A stretch of 42,591 nt of DNA from positions 1 through 42,591 of the IMG/VR virus record IMGVR_UViG_3300048996_000262; one strand, given 5' to 3'. The notes beneath the pieces were generated by a model. That model was not told the origin of the DNA. It ran no database searches and worked only from the letters and a program-made list of their open reading frames with translations. Below are positions 15,457 to 26,442 of this stretch, piece after piece. The stretch's first letter is position 1. Every line of letters begins with the position of its first letter. Origin of the DNA: a virus. A program made the position numbers and the translations under genes.

Positions 15457-15750
15457 ATGGCATGGCCAACCACCTCACGGCAGTCACGCGGTTATGGCGC
15501 ACAATGGGACAAGCTACGCAAGCGCATCCTCGCAAGAGACAAGCACCTGTGCCAGCCATGCCGGCGCAAGGGTAAGCTAACGTCAGGTACAGAGGTGGAC
15601 CACATCACCGGCAAGGCTGATGGCGGCACCGATGACGAGGCGAACCTGCAAGCCATATGCACACCGTGTCACAGGGCAAAGAGTGCAGAGGAAAGTGGCC
15701 GACCATTGAGGCAACGGATTTCCGTTGAAGAATGGTTAGCGGAAGGTTAG
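15457..15750 (+). CDS. HNH endonuclease, terminase-associated type
   Basis: 97 aa. RGYGAQWDKLRKRILARDKH leads to Cys32 and Cys35 (LCQPC), then TEVDHI (Asp48, His49), Asn63, and Cys68, Cys71 and His72 (CTPCHRAKS). This matches the small HNH proteins encoded beside terminase in HK97-like cos phages, where they aid terminase cutting. Here a second HNH gene separates it from the terminase. Start ATG 15457 with GGAGG upstream. Confidence 0.88.
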   Translation: MAWPTTSRQSRGYGAQWDKLRKRILARDKHLCQPCRRKGKLTSGTEVDHITGKADGGTDDEANLQAICTPCHRAKSAEESGRPLRQRISVEEWLAEG

Positions 15751-15759
15751 GATTCAAGC

Positions 15760-15823
15760 GGGTCGAGAGAGCGTTGGAGCGCTCATCCCGACCCTGACCA
15801 CTAACGAACGTACGAGGTTCGCA
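15760..15823 (+). promoter_or_regulatory. structured mRNA leader A of HNH gene
   Basis: Outer stem GGGTCG/CGACCC (15760-15765, 15789-15794) encloses an inner stem AGCG/CGCT with a 6-nt loop. A 10-nt linker follows, then stem CGAAC/GTTCG with loop GTACGAG (15805-15821), then 2 nt and the ATG. The ribosome site GAGG is in the loop and first stem base. Same plan as leaders B (21930) and C (25968). Confidence 0.75.
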
Positions 15824-16528
15824 ATGGCTACATGCGGCTCTATACAATCATCGGTCTGCGCTCAATGCGGCGCCGGCTTTGTATTCACGGTTAAGCGCGG
15901 GCCTCCATCACCGTTCTGCCCGATGTGCAAGGATGAAGCACTAAAGGCAAGGAACCGCAGGAACGTCGCTGCGTGTGTGCTGAGGCAGAATGGCGGAGTC
16001 CCCCCATACCAACGTCCACGCGCGCCTACAGTACACAGGAAAGAACCCCATCCATGCAAGCGGTGCGGATCAATAACGCAGCAGCCTATGTATTGCTCGG
16101 ACCGATGCAGACATATAAGCAACGGCACCGTTTCTGACTTCGACAAGGTGCATAGAGAGTGTCTTGAATGCGGCTCGCTATTCACGGCCAGGTTTGAGCA
16201 GAACACATATTGCACAGCGGTATGCAGCCGACGAAGAAATAACCGGAAAGCATCCGCGATGCGGCGCGCCAGAATGCGAGATGTTGCGCGCCACTACTTC
16301 GATCCTGTTGACGTCCTGAGGCGAGACGGTTGGCGTTGCCACCTCTGCGGCATCAGGACGCCCGAGAAGCTTAGGGGTACATACCAACCTAACGCTCCAG
16401 AGTTAGATCATATCGTTCCGCTGTCAGTAGGCGGCGAACATAGCCCAACGAACACGGCGTGTGCCTGCCGCAAGTGTAACCTCATGAAGGCAGGCAAGCC
16501 ATTAGGGCAGATGAGGTTGGTTGCGTGA
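15824..16528 (+). CDS. zinc-ribbon HNH homing-type endonuclease
   Basis: 234 aa. Three paired-Cys zinc ribbons (CAQCG with CPMC; CKRCG with CSDRC; CLECG with CTAVC) form a DNA-reading array. The HNH domain follows: RCHLCG, then LDHIVPLSVGGEHSPTNTAC, then CRKCNLMKAGKP. Its base composition and isolated position between two packaging genes suggest a mobile free-standing nuclease. It shares domain plan and leader structure with the gene at 21992. Confidence 0.85.
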   Translation: MATCGSIQSSVCAQCGAGFVFTVKRGPPSPFCPMCKDEALKARNRRNVAACVLRQNGGVPPYQRPRAPTVHRKEPHPCKRCGSITQQPMYCSDRCRHISNGTVSDFDKVHRECLECGSLFTARFEQNTYCTAVCSRRRNNRKASAMRRARMRDVARHYFDPVDVLRRDGWRCHLCGIRTPEKLRGTYQPNAPELDHIVPLSVGGEHSPTNTACACRKCNLMKAGKPLGQMRLVA

Positions 16529-16562
16529 CCCGTTCATATCGGCGGGGGGGAGTCTGAACCAT

Positions 16563-16649
16563 ATGGATGACGCCCCTAAGGACCGCTGGGATCCACGCAA
16601 AAACTACGTAATACAGGACCACGCCCGAGCGCGCGCGTGCGAGACATGA
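16563..16649 (+). CDS. 28-codon ORF coupled to terminase small subunit
   Basis: ATG 16563 opens MDDAPKDRWDPRKNYVIQDH and ends with a TGA sharing ATGA with the terminase start. A GGGGGGAG tract is 10 bases upstream of the ATG. May be a true small protein or a translational lead-in. Confidence 0.4.
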   Translation: MDDAPKDRWDPRKNYVIQDHARARACET

Positions 16650-17125
16650 CGAAGCGCCGTGATCGCATCGACAGCCCGACTGCGGCTGTGAAGGTTCTGC
16701 AGGCGACAGTTCAGGAACTCGCACCGCCGGCTCATGTGCCATTGGCGAAGGAAGACGAACCGTTCTGGCAGTCGGTTCTGGCCGAGAAGCCCAAGAGCGA
16801 ATGGACTGCGCACGACCTGGAACTGGCCGCGATGCTCGCTCGCTCGATGCGGATGCTCCAGGCGGAAGACGCCAAGTTGTTCGATGAAGACGCGGTGATG
16901 ATGTCAGCGGGCGGCACGCCGATGGCGAACCCTCGGTTGCGGATCGTGGCTGACCTGCACTCGCGGGTTCTGAAGTTCAGGCAAACACTGGGAATACATA
17001 ACCGGGGCAAGGCCGGTGAGCAGCGCGACGTATTGAAGCGGCGCGAACAGGCAAAGGCGATAGAAGATGGAGCCGCATTCGTCGATGATGACGACGACCT
17101 CATTGCCCGTCCTACTGCCCACTAG
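16646..17125 (+). CDS. terS: terminase small subunit
   Basis: 159 aa. Helical DNA-recognition subunit of the packaging motor. The C-terminal LKFRQTLGIHNRG is typical of small subunits beside HK97-type terminases, and GTPMANPRLR precedes it. Start ATG 16646 follows from the coupled upstream ORF; a GTG at 16637 is possible. It overlaps the large subunit by 59 bases. Confidence 0.85.
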   Translation: MTKRRDRIDSPTAAVKVLQATVQELAPPAHVPLAKEDEPFWQSVLAEKPKSEWTAHDLELAAMLARSMRMLQAEDAKLFDEDAVMMSAGGTPMANPRLRIVADLHSRVLKFRQTLGIHNRGKAGEQRDVLKRREQAKAIEDGAAFVDDDDDLIARPTAH

Positions 17126-18692
17126 CCCATTTGTTTGCGGACCCGTCCTCAAGCGGCGGGATTGGCGCAGGCTACCGAACAAGAATTTGACGCGCGCCGA
17201 AAAGAACATGCGGTTTTGCGAAAAGCACTGCCGAGTGCCTGAAGGCAATCTGGTCGGCGGCAAGATTGTGCTGGCCGACTTTCAGGAGGATTTCTTCTAC
17301 GCGGTTTACGACAACGAGGTGCCGACGCGCACCGCGATTCTGTCGATGGCCCGCAAGAATTCAAAGACGGCAACGATTGCGCTGATCGTGATCGTTCATA
17401 TTGCGGGGCCCGAAGCTGTACAGAACAGCCGGATCAGTTCCGGCGCCCGGTCACGCAAGCAGGCTTCGGAGGTGTACAACTACGCGGCGAAGATGGTGGC
17501 GCTGAGCCCCACGCTTCGTCCGATCATTCGTCCGGTGCCCAGCTCCAAAAAGCTGATCGGGCTTTTCATGAATGTTGAATACGAGGCGCTTGCCGCGGAA
17601 GGGGCAACGGCTCACGGCGGTTCGCCAATTGTGGCTATCCTTGATGAACTCGGCCAGGTCAAAGGACCGCAGGACGATTTCGTTGACGCGATTGTCACCT
17701 CGCAAGGGGCTTACGATAACCCGCTGCTGATCGTCATATCGACGCAGGCACCGACCGATGCCGACATGCTCAGCATCATGATCGACGATGCTGAACGGTC
17801 GCAAGATCCCAGCATCGTCTGCCACGTCTATCGTGCGCCGGACGACTGCGAACTGGACGACGAAACAGCATGGAAGGCGGCGAACCCGGCAATGGGGTTG
17901 TTCCGCTCCAAGGCTGATATTGAGGACAAGGCACTAAAGGCCAAGCGGATGCCATCGAGCGAGAGCGCCTTCCGGGTGCTCTACCTCAACCAGCGCGTGA
18001 ACATGGTTTCCGCCTTCGTATCGGCGTCGGTGTGGAAGGAATGCAGTGGCCAACCGGATGGGTTGGATGGATTGGTTTACGGGGGGCTGGATCTTTCAGC
18101 TACGACCGATCTTACCTCGCTGGTTCTGACGTGCCGCAAGGACGGGGTTCTGCATGTGCATCCCTTCTTCTGGATGCCGCAGGACAGCGTAGTTGAGGCA
18201 TCGCGGCGTGACCGGGAGCCTTACGACGTCTGGGTCAAGGAAGGGCTGGTCCGCACGACACCGGGCAAGGTGATAGATTACGACTTCGTGGCCCGCGACA
18301 TTGGGCAGATATGCGCTGGCCTGAACGTCGCCAAGATCGGTTTCGACCGATGGCGGATGGACAGGATGAAGGGCGCGCTGGAGCGGCAGGGTGTTGATCT
18401 CCCGCTTGAGGCTTTCGGACAGGGTTATGTTTCGATGTCCCCGGCGCTGGATGCGCTGGAGGCTGATCTGTTGAAAGGCGCGGTGAGGCACGGCGGGAAT
18501 CTTCCGCTGGCCATGTGCGCCAAGAACGCCGTCGCGGTTCCCGATCCTGCGGGGAATCGCAAACTGGACAAGTCCAAGGCAACGGGCCGCATCGACGGGC
18601 TGGTTGCGCTCACGATGGCGGAAGGGGTGGAAGCAATGAACAGCGAAACCATTGTTCCGCTCGACCAGTGGATCAAGAGCTATGCCGCATGA
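17067..18692 (+). CDS. terL: terminase large subunit
   Basis: 541 aa. Packaging ATPase and headful or cos nuclease. The ATPase domain has Walker A ARKNSKT (95-101) and Walker B VAILDE (189-194). The RNase H-like nuclease follows, with YGGLDLSATTDLTSLVL holding the first acidic residue and a later GFDRWRM region; GRIDGLVAL near the end holds another Asp. Belongs to the Terminase_1 group found with HK97-type heads. Start at ATG 17067 (AAAGG upstream) is a choice; ATG 17085 is possible. Confidence 0.93.
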   Translation: MEPHSSMMTTTSLPVLLPTSPFVCGPVLKRRDWRRLPNKNLTRAEKNMRFCEKHCRVPEGNLVGGKIVLADFQEDFFYAVYDNEVPTRTAILSMARKNSKTATIALIVIVHIAGPEAVQNSRISSGARSRKQASEVYNYAAKMVALSPTLRPIIRPVPSSKKLIGLFMNVEYEALAAEGATAHGGSPIVAILDELGQVKGPQDDFVDAIVTSQGAYDNPLLIVISTQAPTDADMLSIMIDDAERSQDPSIVCHVYRAPDDCELDDETAWKAANPAMGLFRSKADIEDKALKAKRMPSSESAFRVLYLNQRVNMVSAFVSASVWKECSGQPDGLDGLVYGGLDLSATTDLTSLVLTCRKDGVLHVHPFFWMPQDSVVEASRRDREPYDVWVKEGLVRTTPGKVIDYDFVARDIGQICAGLNVAKIGFDRWRMDRMKGALERQGVDLPLEAFGQGYVSMSPALDALEADLLKGAVRHGGNLPLAMCAKNAVAVPDPAGNRKLDKSKATGRIDGLVALTMAEGVEAMNSETIVPLDQWIKSYAA

Positions 18693-20002
18693 CGGGCTAT
18701 AAGCTATCGGCGGCTGCTTCCAAGGCTGAGACTGCCCGCCGGCATTGGAACGGGCTGGAGAAGAAGGAGATTATCGGGACGGGATCGCTTGGCGCGTGGT
18801 CCGGCGCATCGCGCCAGGACGGAAGCAACTTCCGCACCAACATGGTCACGCTAGCGCAGTTCAGCGATTCAATTTCCTCATCCAACCCTGTCGGCCTTTC
18901 GGCAACATGGGCCTGCGTCAATCTTCTGGCCGGGACCATCGCCAGCCTGCAGTTCATGGTTTACCGCACGGGCGCCGACGGCACGCGCACGGTCGCCAAG
19001 GACCATCCGCTCTATTACGTCCTGCACGACAGTCCAAACTATGACCAGGCCGCTCTCGACTTCTGGGAGATCATCGCCGCGGGGATCGAGCTGCAGGGTA
19101 ATGCCTATGCTTCGATTGAACGCCGCGGGAACGGTGAGGTGTATTCGCTGACGCCGGTTCGCCCAGACCTGATGACCGTGACGCGCAAGTCAAACGGGTT
19201 TCTCGAATACTCATGGACAGAGAACGGCGCGCGTACTGTCAAGGACGGCAAGAACGTGCTGCATATCCGCGGCCCATTTGGCGATGCTGTCTCTGGCGTC
19301 TCAACCTTGACAGCCAACCGCTCTGTTTTTGCGGGCGCAATGGCTGCTGACACGGCGGCGCAATCGACCTTCGCCAACGGGCTGCGCCCTTCGGGCACGT
19401 TCAACACTGGCGAGACGCTCAGCAAGGAACAGCGCCAGGAGTTTAACGGACATCTGCAGCAGAACTTTACCGGAGCCGTAAACGCCGGGCGCCCGATGCT
19501 GATGGACCGCGGCATGACGTGGCAGCAGATCAACCTGACGCCAGAAGATGCGCAGATGCTGGATAGCCGCAAGTTCAGCGGCGAAGAAATTTGCCGGATT
19601 TTCGGCGTGCCACCTGCGATGGTTGGCTACGGGGACGCGGCTTCCAATTGGGGCACCGGCAAGGAAGTTGATGTCCTCGGCTTCCAGAAGTTCACGCTGC
19701 GCAAGCGCCTGAAGCGCATTGAGCAGGCCGTGATGAAACAGCTTCTGACGCCCGCTGACCGGGCACAGGGCATCACGGTGGAATTCAATCTCGACAGCTT
19801 GCTGCGCGGCGACACGATGTCCCGGTACGAGGCTTATGAGAAGTCGCTGAAGAACAAGTGGCAGACCATAAACGAGGTTCGCGCCATCGAGAACTTGCCG
19901 CCCGTCCCGTGGGGAGACCGCCCGTGGGGACAGGAGCAGGACATCCAGCTTCAGGAGGATGGAAGCGTGCCGCCCGCTGATGGGCAGGAGGAAAATCAAT
20001 GA
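18689..20002 (+). CDS. portal protein (HK97 family)
   Basis: 437 aa from ATG 18689, sharing ATGA with terL. The dodecameric portal is the DNA entry and tail attachment vertex. Characteristic parts are SATWACVNLLAGTIASL, the YVLHDSPN segment, and EEICRIFGVPPAMVGYGDAA in the stem region, then a flexible acidic C terminus. Length fits the family. ATGA-coupled to the protease. Confidence 0.95.
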   Translation: MTGYKLSAAASKAETARRHWNGLEKKEIIGTGSLGAWSGASRQDGSNFRTNMVTLAQFSDSISSSNPVGLSATWACVNLLAGTIASLQFMVYRTGADGTRTVAKDHPLYYVLHDSPNYDQAALDFWEIIAAGIELQGNAYASIERRGNGEVYSLTPVRPDLMTVTRKSNGFLEYSWTENGARTVKDGKNVLHIRGPFGDAVSGVSTLTANRSVFAGAMAADTAAQSTFANGLRPSGTFNTGETLSKEQRQEFNGHLQQNFTGAVNAGRPMLMDRGMTWQQINLTPEDAQMLDSRKFSGEEICRIFGVPPAMVGYGDAASNWGTGKEVDVLGFQKFTLRKRLKRIEQAVMKQLLTPADRAQGITVEFNLDSLLRGDTMSRYEAYEKSLKNKWQTINEVRAIENLPPVPWGDRPWGQEQDIQLQEDGSVPPADGQEENQ

Positions 20003-20622
20003 ACAGCCTCGACTTTCAACTTGACCTGAAAGCCATCGACGAAAGTGGCAACATCGAAGGTCTCGCTGTCGGCTATGGGAATGTGGATTTCGGCGGCGAT
20101 CAGGTAATGCCGGGCGCCGTTGATTACACGCGGCTGAAGTCCCTGCCGATGCTGCTGTTCCACGACATGAAGCGGCCCATCGGTGTGTGGACCGAGTTCA
20201 AGGAAACAACAGACGGGCTGTTCGCCAAAGGCCGGATTTCACTCGCAGCACGCGACGGGAAAGAGGCCCACGGTCTGGCTAAGGACGGGGCGCTAGCTGG
20301 CTTGTCGATGGGCTACAGGGCGATCAAGCATCGCTTTGAGGGTAAGACCCGCCAATTGCTGCAGGTCGCTCTGCATGAGGTTTCCCTTGTTGCCATCCCC
20401 ATGAATGACCGCACCGTGGTCACGGGCGTGAAAGACATTTTGGAGGGCGGCGCATTGCCCACCCTTCCCGAATTCGAGGAGTTCCTGAGAGAGTCAGGCT
20501 TCTCGAAAACTCAGGCCACTGCCATCGCTGGCAAGGGTCTGGCCTCATTGCTCCGGGGAGAGCCTGGCAATGAACCCACTGCTGACTTTTGGTCGGCTCT
20601 TGGGGCGCAACTTCGCGCCTAA
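19999..20622 (+). CDS. HK97-type prohead protease (S78)
   Basis: 207 aa. Herpesvirus-assemblin-like serine protease that trims the capsid protein delta domain and itself. LLFHDMKRPIG gives the catalytic His55, LAGLSMGY gives Ser103, and LHEVSLVAIPMN (125-136) is the conserved strand. The C-terminal tail is probably self-cleaved. Coupled to the portal. Confidence 0.93.
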   Translation: MNSLDFQLDLKAIDESGNIEGLAVGYGNVDFGGDQVMPGAVDYTRLKSLPMLLFHDMKRPIGVWTEFKETTDGLFAKGRISLAARDGKEAHGLAKDGALAGLSMGYRAIKHRFEGKTRQLLQVALHEVSLVAIPMNDRTVVTGVKDILEGGALPTLPEFEEFLRESGFSKTQATAIAGKGLASLLRGEPGNEPTADFWSALGAQLRA

Positions 20623-20648
20623 CTCCCTGTGAAATGAGGAATACGACA

Positions 20649-21875
20649 ATGACGACCGAGACCAAGACGGTGGCCGAACAGGCCGCTGAGATCAAGGCTG
20701 CGTTCGATACGCGGTTCGACGAACTGAAGGCAATTGCCACCGACGCACTCGGCAAGGCTGAAAAGGGCGAACCCCTTGCTGCCGGCGCCAAGCAGTCTGC
20801 TGACGAGGCAATCACTGCCGTCAATGAAGCCAAGGCCCGTCTCGATGAGATGGAGCAGAAGATGGCCCTGCGCGGCGATGAAGTCTCGCAGCAGGCTAAG
20901 TCGCTGGGTGAGCAGTTCACCGACGATGCTTCGGTGAAGGAGTTCATGTCGCAGGGCGCTAAGGGACGTGTCAGGTTTGAGACGAAGGCGATTATCTCTG
21001 CCCTCACGACCGTTGCTGATGGCTCTGCCGGCGACCTGATCGTCCCTGATCGCCTTGCTGGCGTTGTGCAGCCTGCACTTCGCAAGCTAACCGTTCGCGA
21101 TCTTCTGGCACCGGGACGCACCAATTCCAACGCGATCCAGTATGTCAAGGAAACCGGCTTCACCAACAATGCCGCAACCGTGACGGAAACTGCTGGCACG
21201 GCGAAGGCGCAGTCGGATATCCAGTTTGATATCGCGACCAGCAACGTTACGACCATTGCACATTGGGTGCTTGCCACCAGGCAAATTCTCTCAGACGTTC
21301 CAATGCTGCAGTCGTACATCGACGGGCGCCTGCGCTATGGCTTGTCCTATGTTGAGGACAACCAGCTTCTCAACGGCGCTGGCACCGGCACCGACTTGAA
21401 TGGCGTGTATACGCAAGCAACGGCATCGACTGCCAACTTGGCGGTTGTTGCCACACCCACGAAGATCGACGTGCTACGGGCCGCTATGCTCCAGGCGTCA
21501 CTTGCCAACCTGCCGCCCTCGGGCATCGTCCTGCATCCGACTGACTGGTTCACCATCGAAGTCACCAAGGACACCGCTGGCGGCTACATCATCGGCAACC
21601 CACAGGATTCGACGCAGCCGCGTATGTGGGGCCTGCCCGTGGTAGAAACTCCGGCGATGACTGTTGGCGCATTTCTTGTTGGCGCATTCAAGACCGGGGC
21701 GCAAATTTTTGACCGTCAAGACTCTACGGTTGAAATTTCAACTGAAGATTCTACAAACTTCAGAATGAACCTCGTGACGATCTTGGCGGAACAGCGGCTT
21801 GCCCTCGCAGTATATAACCCTCTCGCGTTCACGAAGGGTGTGTTTGCCACCCAGATTACAGACCTTACTTCGTAA
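20649..21875 (+). CDS. major capsid protein (HK97 fold)
   Basis: 408 aa from ATG 20649 (AGGA upstream). The first 100 or so residues are a charged coiled coil, the scaffolding delta domain removed by the protease. The HK97 core starts near FETKAIISALTTV and includes GDLIVPDRLAG, HWVLATRQILSDVPML, the ATPTKIDVLRAAMLQA helix and GIVLHPTDWFTIE. Whether it crosslinks cannot be told. A large hairpin region and an HNH gene follow. Confidence 0.95.
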   Translation: MTTETKTVAEQAAEIKAAFDTRFDELKAIATDALGKAEKGEPLAAGAKQSADEAITAVNEAKARLDEMEQKMALRGDEVSQQAKSLGEQFTDDASVKEFMSQGAKGRVRFETKAIISALTTVADGSAGDLIVPDRLAGVVQPALRKLTVRDLLAPGRTNSNAIQYVKETGFTNNAATVTETAGTAKAQSDIQFDIATSNVTTIAHWVLATRQILSDVPMLQSYIDGRLRYGLSYVEDNQLLNGAGTGTDLNGVYTQATASTANLAVVATPTKIDVLRAAMLQASLANLPPSGIVLHPTDWFTIEVTKDTAGGYIIGNPQDSTQPRMWGLPVVETPAMTVGAFLVGAFKTGAQIFDRQDSTVEISTEDSTNFRMNLVTILAEQRLALAVYNPLAFTKGVFATQITDLTS

Positions 21876-21929
21876 GGACTTCAGCAATACTTGTCTCTTG
21901 ACCTTGGTGTCGGCTAAGAGCATAAAAAC

Positions 21930-21991
21930 GGGGACTGAAAGGCCGGCAAGCCGATCAGTCCCCTGACACCCACGATCATGCGAGGATCGAG
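21930..21991 (+). promoter_or_regulatory. structured mRNA leader B of HNH gene
   Basis: Stem GGGGACTGA/TCAGTCCCC (21930-21938, 21955-21963) encloses GGC/GCC with a 6-nt loop. An extra GGTGTC/GACACC pairing (21906-21911, 21965-21970) can enclose the whole. A 9-nt linker follows, then CGATC/GATCG with loop ATGCGAG (21973-21989), 2 nt, and the ATG. Compared with leader A, the small stem has a compensatory T-A to A-T change. Confidence 0.78.
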
Positions 21992-22705
21992 ATGCTTCCG
22001 GCTTGTAGCCTCTGTTCATCTGTAATTTCAATCCATTCCAAATCTGGGCTGTGCGACAAGTGCCGCAAGTCTGAATGGCAGCGCGCCAAGCGCGGCACGG
22101 CAACTACGCGGGGTGAGACATTCCCTTGCAGTGGTTGTCGGATGCCAACAGTTCGCGCCTCGAATTACCAAGTCCAATGCCAAGAATGCGCCGGCAAGAA
22201 AGGGCCGTCATACTCGGTCGCGTATCGGGTGAGGAAGCACGGAAACCTAGGGAGGAAGCCGAGGCTACACGTCTGCCTAACTTGCTCAGGGCCAGTTGTC
22301 AGCAAGGCGCACAACCGCAAATATTGCGACGAGTGTAGAGTACTCGCTCGGCAAGAACGGGTGCGTATCTCACGCACTCGCCCCGAGGGATACATCAGCC
22401 ATCGCATCAGCGCAGGAATAAAACAAAGCCTACGGATGGCTAAGGGTGGCCACCATTGGGAGACGCTAGTCGGCTTTACCCTCGCAGACCTGATGTCCCA
22501 CCTAGAGGCGCAATTCCTGCCTGGCATGAGTTGGGAAAATCGCAGGTCTTGGCATATCGACCATCGGCGACCCCTTTGTTCATACGAATTTAAGACGCCC
22601 GACTGCCTGCAATTCCGCGAGGCTTGGGCCATCACAAACCTGCAGCCTCTATGGGCGCGGGACAATCTTGCCAAAGGCGGGAGGTGGAACCCTCCTGCGG
22701 ACTAG
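21992..22705 (+). CDS. zinc-ribbon HNH homing-type endonuclease
   Basis: 237 aa. N-terminal array of paired Cys (CSLCS with CDKC; CSGC with CQEC; CLTC with CDEC), then a helical spacer and an HNH domain: LMSHLEAQFLPGMSWENRRS, WHIDHRRPLCSY and AITNLQPLWARDNLAKGG. The last block is typical of phage homing HNH nucleases. It is inserted after the capsid gene, which is intact. ATG 21992 has GAGG inside the leader hairpin. Confidence 0.88.
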   Translation: MLPACSLCSSVISIHSKSGLCDKCRKSEWQRAKRGTATTRGETFPCSGCRMPTVRASNYQVQCQECAGKKGPSYSVAYRVRKHGNLGRKPRLHVCLTCSGPVVSKAHNRKYCDECRVLARQERVRISRTRPEGYISHRISAGIKQSLRMAKGGHHWETLVGFTLADLMSHLEAQFLPGMSWENRRSWHIDHRRPLCSYEFKTPDCLQFREAWAITNLQPLWARDNLAKGGRWNPPAD

Positions 22706-22714
22706 GAGAGCATC

Positions 22715-22918
22715 ATGACGAACGTGACCATGAAGGCGACGGACACGCTGCATATCAGTTCGGTCGGTCCTGAGAACATCACCCCGGGACAGGAGTTTGA
22801 GACCACCGAGGGAACGGCCAAGGAACTTGAGGCGCGCGGTCTAGCTACTCGCGTCAAGGCTGAACCTGCTCCCGAGAACAAGGCCGACAAGCCTGCCCCA
22901 AAGGGAAAGGCAAAATAA
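22715..22918 (+). CDS. small head-region protein, 67 aa
   Basis: MTNVTMKATDTLHISSVGPE, then GTAKELEARGLAT and a Lys/Ala/Pro-rich tail. Small proteins of this plan follow the capsid gene in many siphophages and are annotated as hypothetical. AGGAG upstream; TAATG coupling to the next gene. Confidence 0.65.
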   Translation: MTNVTMKATDTLHISSVGPENITPGQEFETTEGTAKELEARGLATRVKAEPAPENKADKPAPKGKAK

Positions 22919-23238
22919 TGCCACACTACGCAAACCGCGCCGCGCGCAGCCGGGCTATTTTCTCAGCGGCCAACAAGCCGTCGAACTCCGTCCTTCCCGC
23001 CATCACCGGCACGACCACATCAGGCCAGACGCTGACGTGTTCGACCGGAACGTGGACGCTCTCGCCCACCATTTCCTACCAATGGAACCGCGCGGGCAAT
23101 CCTATCGCGGGCGCCACAGCGTCAACGCGGCTGCTTGCCGCGCCCGATGTCGGGTCAACCATGACGTGCACAGTCACCGCCACCAAGAACGGGTCGCAAA
23201 CCGTTGTAACCACGCTTCCGACCGCCGCGATTGCCTAA
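22918..23238 (+). CDS. Ig-like domain virion protein
   Basis: 106 aa. After a basic N terminus, one bacterial Ig-like beta domain: GQTLTCSTGTWT, ISYQWNRAGNPIAGAT, then DVGSTMTCTVTATKNGS. Two Cys could form a disulfide. Such domains decorate capsids or tails and bind surfaces weakly. Placed with head genes, so capsid decoration is the most likely role. Confidence 0.72.
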   Translation: MPHYANRAARSRAIFSAANKPSNSVLPAITGTTTSGQTLTCSTGTWTLSPTISYQWNRAGNPIAGATASTRLLAAPDVGSTMTCTVTATKNGSQTVVTTLPTAAIA

Positions 23239-23273
23239 GGCAACGTGGGGCGAGCATTTGAGGGTAATTACCA

Positions 23274-23774
23274 ATGGCTATTTCTCTTGAAGTCCTCGCC
23301 CGTATCCGCGGCGAGCTAACCTCTGCAGGCGACGGCGGCACGGCCCGAATGGAGATCAGCGAAGGCACGTCCTTCGATCTCGATAACGGCACGCTCATCA
23401 ATCAGGCAAACGCCATCTACATTGATGACTTCGATATCGCGGCGTCGGGTAGCCTGAACTATGACCTTGCCGGCACGCTGGAAGATCGCCTCGGCAACGT
23501 ACTGGTGTTCACCGCGGTCAAGGCCATCATGGTCATTGCCAACCCGACCAACGTGAACAGCGTGATCTATGGCAACGTCACGAATGGCTTTGTTGGCCCA
23601 CTGAGCGCTGCCACGGCAAGCCTGACCGTTCCTCCGGGCGGGTTCATTATGATGACCAACCCGACGGCTGCAGGCTGGACGGTAACGGCGGCCACGGTTG
23701 ACCTCATCAAGCTCGCCAACAGCGCAGCGGGCACTTCGGTCACGGGCACCATCGTCATTGTTGGAGAAGCCTGA
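23274..23774 (+). CDS. putative structural protein, 166 aa
   Basis: MAISLEVLARIRGELTSAGD; the rest is beta-rich and ends LIKLANSAAGTSVTGTIVIV, which I associate with uncharacterised virion proteins of alphaproteobacterial phages. GAGGG upstream of the start. Coupled to the next gene by a one-base overlap. Confidence 0.65.
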   Translation: MAISLEVLARIRGELTSAGDGGTARMEISEGTSFDLDNGTLINQANAIYIDDFDIAASGSLNYDLAGTLEDRLGNVLVFTAVKAIMVIANPTNVNSVIYGNVTNGFVGPLSAATASLTVPPGGFIMMTNPTAAGWTVTAATVDLIKLANSAAGTSVTGTIVIVGEA

Positions 23775-24172
23775 TGGCATTCGCATTCTCAGACGCAGTA
23801 AAAAACGCAGCGCTTGATGCAGTCGAAACGGCCATTGGCACGTCTGCAGTTCTCAAAATCCGTTCGGGCGCCCCGCCTGCGACGATTGGCACTGCTGATA
23901 GCGGAACGATTCTCGCTACACTCAACCTCCCTTCGGATTGGATGGCTGCGGCTTCAGCCGGATCGAAGGCCAAAACCGGGACGTGGGAGGATACGGCTGC
24001 AGATGCGTCGGGCACAGCGGCACACTTCCGCATCTATGCCAGCAACGGCACGACGCAGCACATCCAGGGCACGGTTACGGTTACGGGAGGCGGCGGCGAC
24101 ATGACGCTGGATTCCGTCTCTATCACCGCGGGGCAAACCATCACGATCACCAGCTTCACACTGACAGCATGA
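23774..24172 (+). CDS. putative structural protein, 132 aa
   Basis: MAFAFSDAVKNAALDAVETA, then VLKIRSGAPPATIGTADSGT and a beta-rich Thr/Gly C terminus. Resembles hypothetical virion proteins that precede tail-connector genes. Shares ATGA with the next gene. Function unknown. Confidence 0.65.
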   Translation: MAFAFSDAVKNAALDAVETAIGTSAVLKIRSGAPPATIGTADSGTILATLNLPSDWMAAASAGSKAKTGTWEDTAADASGTAAHFRIYASNGTTQHIQGTVTVTGGGGDMTLDSVSITAGQTITITSFTLTA

Positions 24173-25356
24173 CCACGTTTACCGACAACCTTGATGGTGC
24201 CGCAGGCTTTGTCCTGCGCAGCCGTACAGGTTGGACGCGCCCGACCGGGCTTGATGAGGTGGTCCAGGCCACCGGCGACACCGGTTACACACTGCCGGTC
24301 GGGACAACAGCAGCCAGCGGGACGTGGCACATGCCCACCTCGCAGCCGAGCGGCAATGATCAATACGTCGAGGCGATGTGCTACTTTGGTGGGACCGCAG
24401 CGGGCTTTCAGATGGGCGTCCGCTGCAATACGGCTTCCGCGCTTGGCCGCGGATACCTAATCCGTCGGAACAGCAACACACAAATTGGCCTGTTCGTTCG
24501 CGACGACGCGGGCACTCTGACTTCGCTTGGCACTTACACCGGGACATCCACCGACCTCAACGCCAACAAGGTGCGGCTAGAGGTGTCGGGTTCATCGGTA
24601 GCGGTCAAGTTCATGGGCGCAACGGTGATCGGGCCTGTGACCGACACGACCAGCGCCAGCGGCAATATCGCCATGCTGTCGCGGGGCGGCGCGCAGGCGG
24701 CGACACGCCAGGTAGACGATTGGGAAAGCGGCGACCTCGGCACGGCTGCGGCCTCTGGCACGGCGTCGGGTTCGCTCGCGCTCTCAGGCTCAGCAGCAGG
24801 CAAGCTAAAGGTTGCGGCTGTTTCGACCGGCGCACTGGTTCTCGCAGCGACCACGGCAGGGACTGTGCGTGTTCAGGGGGGCGTATCCGGTTCGCTCGGG
24901 ATCGCTGGAACCTCGGCAGGGACGGGCAGCATCCCCGGCACATCGGGCCAAGCCACTGGTTCATTTACGATCACGGGTTCGGCAACAGGAAAGACACTTA
25001 TCCAAGGCGCTGCAAATGACACGCTGACCCTCGCTGGTGTGTCAGCAGGCACGGTGAGCATTCAAGGTAGTGCGGATAGTTCGCTGGCGCTCTTCGGGGG
25101 CGCTGAGGGCAAGGTCAAGATAACCGGCCAGGCGGGCGGCGCGGCGGTCATTGAGGGTGCGGCAACAGCATCGGCAATCGCTGGTGTGGAAGGCCAGGCT
25201 TTAGGTTCGTTTGTGATTGGCGGTTCTGCCACAGCTCATATTTACAGCCGTCGGCAACCAACGGCCTCCCGACCCGGCAACGACAACCATTCAATGCGGC
25301 CAGTGTCGCAATCGCGCGGGACACGTCCTGCGGCAGTCAGTTCTGGGAGGCGGTAA
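24169..25356 (+). CDS. repeat-bearing structural protein (LamG-like + 20-aa repeats)
   Basis: 395 aa. Residues 1-185 look like a jelly-roll lectin-like domain (FTDNLDGAAGFVLRSRTGWT, later VRLEVSGSSVAVKFMGATVI and RQVDDWESGD). Residues about 197-355 are eight repeats of roughly 20 residues. The C terminus is basic and low complexity (RPGNDNHSMRPVSQSRGTR). The arrangement suggests an elongated surface appendage on the head or neck. Start ATG 24169 shares ATGA with the previous gene. Confidence 0.7.
   Translation: MTTFTDNLDGAAGFVLRSRTGWTRPTGLDEVVQATGDTGYTLPVGTTAASGTWHMPTSQPSGNDQYVEAMCYFGGTAAGFQMGVRCNTASALGRGYLIRRNSNTQIGLFVRDDAGTLTSLGTYTGTSTDLNANKVRLEVSGSSVAVKFMGATVIGPVTDTTSASGNIAMLSRGGAQAATRQVDDWESGDLGTAAASGTASGSLALSGSAAGKLKVAAVSTGALVLAATTAGTVRVQGGVSGSLGIAGTSAGTGSIPGTSGQATGSFTITGSATGKTLIQGAANDTLTLAGVSAGTVSIQGSADSSLALFGGAEGKVKITGQAGGAAVIEGAATASAIAGVEGQALGSFVIGGSATAHIYSRRQPTASRPGNDNHSMRPVSQSRGTRPAAVSSGRR
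24757..25245 (+). repeat. region coding eight ~20-aa Gly/Ala/Ser repeats
   Basis: Consensus about G-x-A-x-GSL-x-L-x-G-x-A-x-G-x-V-x-I-x-G, each repeat made of two 10-residue halves. Examples are GTASGSLALSGSAAGKL and ATGSFTITGSATGKTLIQG. The periodic small/hydrophobic pattern suggests a beta-solenoid or collagen-like rod. Confidence 0.7.
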
Positions 25357-25923
25357 ATGGGACTCTCGTTGGTAACACCGCCAACCGATTATCCTGTCAC
25401 ATTGGAAGAGGCCCGCGCGCAATGCAGGGTTCTGCACACTGATGAAGACGCATTGATCCAGACGTATATCATCGCCGCAACTTCGTATGTGGAGCGGCAG
25501 TTGAGCCTGTCGCTCATGACGCGGACTTATGCGCTCACGCTGGATGCATTCACCGACACAATTGAACTGCCGCGCGGGCCGGTGGCATCAGTAACGAGCG
25601 TTGGATACGTCGATCAGGACGGCTTGCCTGCCACCGTGGACAGCGATCTCTACACCGTCGATCTTTCCAGCACCCCGCAATGGGTTGTCCTGAACAGCGG
25701 CTCGCCTTGGCCCACACCTATGTCCGGCATCAACATGGTGACTGTAACCTACGTGGCCGGCGCGGATGAACTGCCCGAAAGCATGGGCGACATAAAGGCC
25801 GCAATCCTGCTGATGGTTGCTCACTTCTATGCCAACCGGGAAGCGGCATCCGTCAATGAGGTGAAGGAAGTCCCGCTTGCTGTTGACGCGCTGTTGATGG
25901 GCTGGCGCTGGGTTCTGGTATGA
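25357..25923 (+). CDS. head-tail connector protein (gp6-like)
   Basis: 188 aa. MGLSLVTPPTDYPVTLEEAR begins the helical HK97 gp6/phiE125 gp8 type fold (LHTDEDALIQTYIIAATSYV). A beta insertion and a C-terminal helix follow (IKAAILLMVAHFYANREA). It forms a ring below the portal. GGAGG upstream of the ATG. Confidence 0.88.
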   Translation: MGLSLVTPPTDYPVTLEEARAQCRVLHTDEDALIQTYIIAATSYVERQLSLSLMTRTYALTLDAFTDTIELPRGPVASVTSVGYVDQDGLPATVDSDLYTVDLSSTPQWVVLNSGSPWPTPMSGINMVTVTYVAGADELPESMGDIKAAILLMVAHFYANREAASVNEVKEVPLAVDALLMGWRWVLV

Positions 25924-25967
25924 AGGATGTTTGTAACCGCCTATGTTAAATGCTATTGCGGATGGGC

Positions 25968-26028
25968 GGGCCGAAGAGATGTTCTAGCATCATCCCCGGC
26001 CCTCTCATAAACGCGATAGGAGCGCGCC
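25968..26028 (+). promoter_or_regulatory. structured mRNA leader C of low-GC gene
   Basis: Outer stem GGGCCG/CGGCCC (25968-25973, 25997-26002) encloses GATG/CATC with a 6-nt loop. A 9-nt linker follows, then CGCG/CGCG with loop ATAGGAG (26012-26026), 2 nt, and the ATG. The inner and outer stem lengths, loop sizes and 4-nt/5-nt bulges equal those of leader A, with different paired bases. Confidence 0.72.
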
Positions 26029-26442
26029 ATGAGTAAGGGTACAATTACCACAGACGAGTTTCACAACAAGCTAGTTCAACTCGTTTCGGATGTCGCCGCA
26101 AAGGCAATCCGTGGTGAAACAAGCGGTTGTGATGGAATGTCCTGGGAAGACGCGAGTAAGTTTATAGAACTGGTCAATCAGTTGGTTTTTATGCGGGTGT
26201 ATCCATCTGCCGAAAGAGACGGAGATGGGACGCTTGGCGAGTTTTCCCTTAGCGTGTCTTTATGTTCTGGCGACGTTGACGATTTTGACACTCACAGAGA
26301 GCAAAATTTTCCACTTTCTTTGGTGGTGCGGGATGGTGCTGAATATATTTATGAGGGTGTCGATTACGTTCGGGAGTATCGAGACTACATAGCTAAATCG
26401 GTGTCGAAGCTTGATGAATGGCTTGAGCATCAGGGGGCCTGA
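26029..26442 (+). CDS. low-GC accessory gene (moron), unknown function
   Basis: 137 aa, MSKGTITTDEFHNKLVQLVS. Acidic and soluble, with helices at both ends and a beta-like middle (SLVVRDGAEYIYEGVDYVRE). Base use is clearly more AT-rich than the flanking genes (about 42% GC in a 60-base sample by eye). It has its own leader and a strong terminator after it, inside the head-tail gene block. This marks a recently acquired unit. I do not recognise the protein. Confidence 0.75.
   Translation: MSKGTITTDEFHNKLVQLVSDVAAKAIRGETSGCDGMSWEDASKFIELVNQLVFMRVYPSAERDGDGTLGEFSLSVSLCSGDVDDFDTHREQNFPLSLVVRDGAEYIYEGVDYVREYRDYIAKSVSKLDEWLEHQGA

Follow-up and report, generated by a model that had tools for sequence, protein, structure and literature searches.

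The same two-hairpin leader precedes three genes in a 42.6 kb virus genome from IMG/VR (the whole stretch of DNA analysed, hereafter the window). It is most probably, at a probability we put at about 0.87, the target of a ~75 nt cis-antisense RNA that each gene carries for itself and that would repress its translation. This reading is built on the geometry of the leaders, their covariation, a backward promoter common to the family, strand-specific pairing and identity of architecture with the SymE and IncQ repA loci. A sigma-70 promoter on the opposite strand, within codons 5–14, would start a ~75 nt transcript near codon 2, which would read back over the start codon and on through the ribosome-site hairpin and the conserved UAACCACAA linker, to end just past the two-tier hairpin. 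The predicted RNA would fold into two stem-loops, pair with the matching leader and prevent ribosome binding in the manner of SymR on symE and RepX on IncQ repA. As the stems and loops differ among copies, each of the three phage antisense RNAs should silence its own gene only. We infer that these RNAs are made in the window phage and that they would repress by blocking ribosome binding, presumably to keep expression of the nuclease and accessory genes down except when the antisense RNA is out-titrated.

The window encodes HK97-type head genes and a terminase sharing 58% identity with that of HK022-like phages. A first-pass annotation had described one fold ahead of the ATGs at 15824, 21992 and 26029, namely a two-tier hairpin, a linker of 10, 9 or 9 nt, a small hairpin with a 7-nt loop, and then 2 nt to the ATG. 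Sequence reading and folding confirmed this geometry in all three places (Table 1), together with the loops and the small stems (CGAAC/GTTCG, CGATC/GATCG and CGCG/CGCG); the outer stems were likewise present as described, save that the second is 9 bp long (GGGGACTGA/TCAGTCCCC). All three leaders had a folding energy below that of 200 of 200 dinucleotide shuffles (z = −3.8, −4.3 and −2.9), and no fourth copy was found in the window. IMG/VR homologues of the first HNH gene retain the leader; a protein-based search with the second HNH and the 137-aa protein gave no relatives in viral contigs. A further HNH gene of 97 aa (phrog_589, 15457–15750) ends 10 bp before leader 1.

Table 1 Leaders, downstream genes and predicted antisense RNAs in the window
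Feature	Position	Strand	Basis or detail
Leader 1, of HNH gene	15760–15823	+	direct reading, folding, R1 match
Leader 1 outer stem	15760–15765/15789–15794	+	
Leader 1 upper stem-loop	15770–15783	+	
Leader 1 linker	15795–15804	+	
Leader 1 ribosome-site hairpin	15805–15821	+	loop GTACGAG
HNH gene, zinc-ribbon endonuclease, 234 aa	15824–16528	+	phrog_1271, PF01844
Leader 2	21930–21991	+	direct reading, folding, R1 match
Leader 2 outer stem	21930–21938/21955–21963	+	
Leader 2 linker	21964–21972	+	
Leader 2 ribosome-site hairpin	21973–21989	+	loop ATGCGAG
Endonuclease VII/HNH-type gene, 237 aa	21992–22705	+	phrog_1035
Leader 3	25968–26028	+	direct reading, folding, R1 match
Leader 3 outer stem	25968–25973/25997–26002	+	
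Leader 3 linker	26003–26011	+	
Leader 3 ribosome-site hairpin	26012–26026	+	loop ATAGGAG
Gene of unknown function, 137 aa	26029–26442	+	no family assignment and no relatives found
Predicted cis-antisense RNA 1, about 75–80 nt	15752–15830	−	ends by analogy with SymR/RepX; weak candidate promoters TTGAGC-17-TAGAGC or TTGAGC-15-TATAGA, within HNH gene
Predicted cis-antisense RNA 2	21922–21998	−	candidate promoter TTGAAA-18-TACAAG, 3 nt off family position
Predicted cis-antisense RNA 3	25960–26035	−	candidate promoter TTGTTG-16-TAATTG

Recurrence of the leader exceeds chance. An 18-base pattern covering the small hairpin only, searched in 2.9 million viral contigs, matched six (three of them close relatives of each other); all six also possess the upstream hairpin, which was not part of the pattern, and a TAACC linker, and one match precedes an 84-aa non-HNH protein. 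Over all genome contigs, the exact pattern gave only three chance matches and one Brucella locus. A covariance model (R1), seeded with four phage leaders of which leader 1 was the only one from the window, recovered the withheld leaders 2 and 3 (37.5 bits, E 1.8e-6 and 32.2 bits, E 3e-5, respectively) and matched before the HNH gene of the isolated Azospirillum phage Cd (47.9 bits; leader of gene 26, L017). Another covariance model, R2, matched (E ≤ 0.01) 43 of 398 sampled genomes in Brucella's order (~11%), 26 of 385 in its class and 23 of 299 in its phylum; as a negative control, 198 Bacteroidota genomes, whose base composition differs, gave no match. The covariance-model search recommended by the first-pass annotation has yielded further matches in Brucella's order, phage Cd and IMG/VR phages, and the portable leader it proposed stands, preceding HNH and accessory genes with strong covariation in relatives. 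Three doubtful loci (L056, L058 and L062) were scored yet excluded from the seed; L056 and L062 have similar GC-rich hairpins, with the upper part GGTGGAAACTCC and a different linker, which may be a separate repeat.

A first alignment, made by hand from 22 leaders, has 93.4% of its cells paired and changes on both sides in 16 of its 19 pairs. Its double-change cells number 93, where shuffles give 23 ± 3.5, and pairing falls to ~40% once the partner is slid by one base. The second alignment, of 43 matches all found with R2 and none in its seed, contains 206 double-change cells against 67 ± 6 when shuffled. In both alignments the double-change counts agree with the earlier claim of a selected RNA structure with covarying pairs. 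Structure models served to find or fit each alignment, which biases both towards structure; withholding two window leaders and running the shuffle and slide tests offset this bias only in part. Of 807 cells in the core helices, 779 are Watson–Crick, and on the mRNA strand there are 18 A–C against two G–U cells (p = 4e-4, cells counted as independent). An A–C mismatch on the mRNA strand is a G–U pair on the opposite strand, and so the asymmetry, read from aligned sequences, shows a fold kept in a putative antisense RNA rather than in the mRNA alone; since the models prefer G–U to A–C, their bias opposes the A–C excess.

A promoter signal lies on the opposite strand inside the coding sequences. 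When the loci were anchored at the ATG, unrelated genes had in common GCT at codon 2, TA at +18/+19 and C at +21, and the +18 to +21 pattern, on the opposite strand, is an extended −10 (TGnTA). In 55 non-redundant loci, the backward sigma-70 −10 at +19 to +14 has a mean of 2.91 matches to TATAAT against a background of 1.17 (z = 12.4), a signal reached in none of 2000 codon shuffles; sense TA at +18/19 occurs in 40 of 55 loci where 1.4 are expected, and the family −35 lies at +41 to +36 with a spacer of 16. The third position of codon 6 is T in 41 of the 55 mostly unrelated proteins, which protein conservation does not explain. As the covariance models stop at the ATG, this signal is independent of how the loci were found. 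T is weak at the last −10 position of the family, and a weak T at the final position has been reported for alphaproteobacterial promoters (PMC8407463). In symE, changing CATTCT to CACTCC silences symR (Kawano et al., PMC1891008); the change maps to +13 to +18, and the proven SymR −10 coincides with the family −10 position. An N-terminus of MADSDNTRTL or alike is common to otherwise different proteins (L067, L088, L092, L093, L097, L053 and L054), some of which carry a twin-arginine signal; this stretch overlies the antisense promoter, which may be what fixes it.

In the window the individual candidate promoters are weak: TA is present at +18/19 for leaders 1 and 3 and absent for leader 2, where the candidate is shifted. 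A strict promoter scan of leaders 1, 2 and 3 found no antisense promoter; the candidate for antisense RNA 3 has TG one base ahead of a −10 at the family position of +19 to +14. The antisense RNAs predicted for the window measure 77–80 nt, with two stem-loops (−35 to −38 kcal/mol). Duplexes with the cognate leader reach −171 to −176 kcal/mol; those with a non-cognate leader are far weaker, at −44 to −68. No intrinsic terminator was detected for them; in predicted RNA 2 a U-run, GUUUUUAU, lies 3' of the antisense hairpin. These promoter and terminator results weigh against the antisense reading, as do the miss of the E. coli K-12 symE leader and the short reading frames described below.

The first-pass annotation took the leader for an independent version and knew of no named motif with this form. 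Neither view is supported: the architecture matches RF00043 and, on the opposite strand, RF01809, in each case below the cut-off. At the gathering threshold, Rfam returned nothing on the leaders. In lax scans RF00043 fell exactly on the motif on the same strand (45.7, 38.9 and 37.1 bits, best E 2e-5), with leader 1 at 27.9 bits and the best relative at 45.7 bits against a gathering cut-off of 55; symR (RF01809) fell exactly on the motif on the opposite strand (39 bits, E 1.4e-4), this best score belonging to a relative, with none in the window, against a cut-off of 61 bits. The RF00043 consensus runs in the order two-tier hairpin, CUAACCAccAac, GGAG hairpin and CAAUGGCU. On the IncQ repA leader, the R2 match coincides exactly with the RepX site (29.8 bits, E 5.9e-7), and R2 matches in Pseudomonadota include leaders of SymE toxins (PF08845 E 7e-20 and 2e-8); neither IncQ repA nor SymE was used to train R2. 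Amongst SymE loci fetched via the protein family, at least 8 of the 16 examined have the same leader. The E. coli K-12 symE leader is missed by both R1 and R2, and by eye it has the family architecture.

SymE/SymR (RF01809, PF08845) resembles the family in its two-hairpin leader, TAATCACAA-type linker, ATG[AG]CT, a Shine–Dalgarno within the 7-nt loop (CCTGGAG in SymE) and an in-gene antisense promoter with its −10 at +19 to +14, and SymR itself is a 77-nt antisense RNA starting near +6 (Kawano 2007, PMC1891008). SymE, however, is an AbrB-fold toxin under LexA, whereas the window genes encode HNH nucleases and an unknown protein. In R1162/RSF1010, the ribosome site of repA is covered by RepX, an antisense RNA of 75 nt (PMC8136791), and repA starts ATGGCTAC, with TA at +18/19 as in the family; what sets RepX apart is its role in plasmid copy-number control and its binding by FinO in Salmonella (PMC8136791). 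FinP and RepX have a common fold and nearly 50% identity (PMC8136791). FinP/traJ (RF00107) shares with the family a two stem-loop antisense RNA covering the ribosome site; Rfam scans gave no FinP match on any leader.

With the late-gene hairpins of T4 homing endonucleases, the nuclease ribosome site lies inside an RNA hairpin, the mRNA occluding itself with no known antisense RNA. Control of this self-acting kind had been the first-pass proposal. In the rival explanation built on it, the ribosome-site hairpin alone would limit translation until temperature, ribosome load or a phage protein opened it. The stable fold, with a Shine–Dalgarno in the loop adjoining the start codon in nearly every copy, would suit such control, but the conserved backward promoter within unrelated coding sequences, the avoidance of G–U on the mRNA strand and its tolerance on the other, and the match to known antisense-RNA loci are left unexplained, for which reasons we consider it distinctly unlikely and no longer the best reading. 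The hairpin is probably not the main mechanism; it may act in addition to the antisense RNA.

Less probable again is a riboswitch or translation operator to which a small molecule or a protein (e.g. of FinO/ProQ type) would bind: the single-stranded linker is conserved and FinO binds RepX (PMC8136791), yet the loops and stems vary freely, the downstream genes belong to no single pathway, and FinO/ProQ-domain genes occur in only 4 of 30 genomes with the motif and in 1 of 30 without it, so a FinO/ProQ requirement was dropped. A DNA-level element, that is, a folded recombination or insertion site allowing the downstream genes to be swapped, has a similarly slight probability: the same leader does precede unrelated genes in phages, plasmids and chromosomes, but with ribosome site, start codon and backward promoter conserved in register and, short of a systematic search, no matching 3'-side element noticed; recombination as the mode of dispersal is compatible with the antisense explanation too. 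Two other readings were dropped: a GGA-loop (CsrA/RsmA) element, the upper loop having no GGA in leaders 2, 3 and L002, and a loop–linker pseudoknot (UGG/CCA), which is formable in some members only.

On the antisense reading, SymR of a chromosomal toxin and RepX of IncQ plasmids, catalogued apart until now, share one architecture, which is indicated to control phage HNH nucleases and many orphan genes as well. The link among RF00043, RF01809 and the leader family is new, and so is the presence of the leader before phage HNH nucleases and before unrelated small genes by the dozen. The motif is far wider in distribution than catalogued; our literature search did not find SymR mentioned jointly with RepX or R1162. 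Tentatively, and with somewhat less than even confidence, we suggest that SymR, RepX and the leader family represent a single regulatory cassette that has spread horizontally, its promoter, antisense RNA and leader taking up ~115 bp across the gene start. Fitted to dozens of unrelated genes, it would flag a large group of phage, plasmid and alphaproteobacterial chromosomal genes, so far unrecognised, that are sensitive to dose and probably harmful, each with a private antisense RNA. The leader points to genes needing tight expression control, and its signature lets private antisense regulators, almost invisible to gene finders, be read from genomes. The HNH nucleases of the window may be toxic.

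The downstream proteins are diverse, 49 of them comprising ~9 HNH or endonuclease VII proteins, a few weakly GIY-YIG-like, two Lar-like and a majority without a family. Their neighbourhoods are mixed: some hold portal and capsid genes of prophages, some conjugation genes, and others are ordinary chromosomal sequence. About one-fifth of the leaders examined are followed by an open-reading frame of under 45 codons (15–44), with the leader and start region intact (L066, L070, L075, L079, L090, L094–L096, L101, L104 and L105); these may be decayed genes or antisense RNAs retained for another role. One alphaproteobacterial genome (G418) holds six leader copies, of which the two fetched, L070 and L090, start MADSE(T/N)xRT, followed by a short frame. 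In another alphaproteobacterial genome (G582, 1.2 Mb), L072 and L089 are near-identical pairs of leader and 224-aa gene, their leaders being A+T-richer than the others. Finally, tRNA genes, a usual integration site of islands and prophages, lie near the leader in L045 (1175–1261) and L063 (2890–2976).
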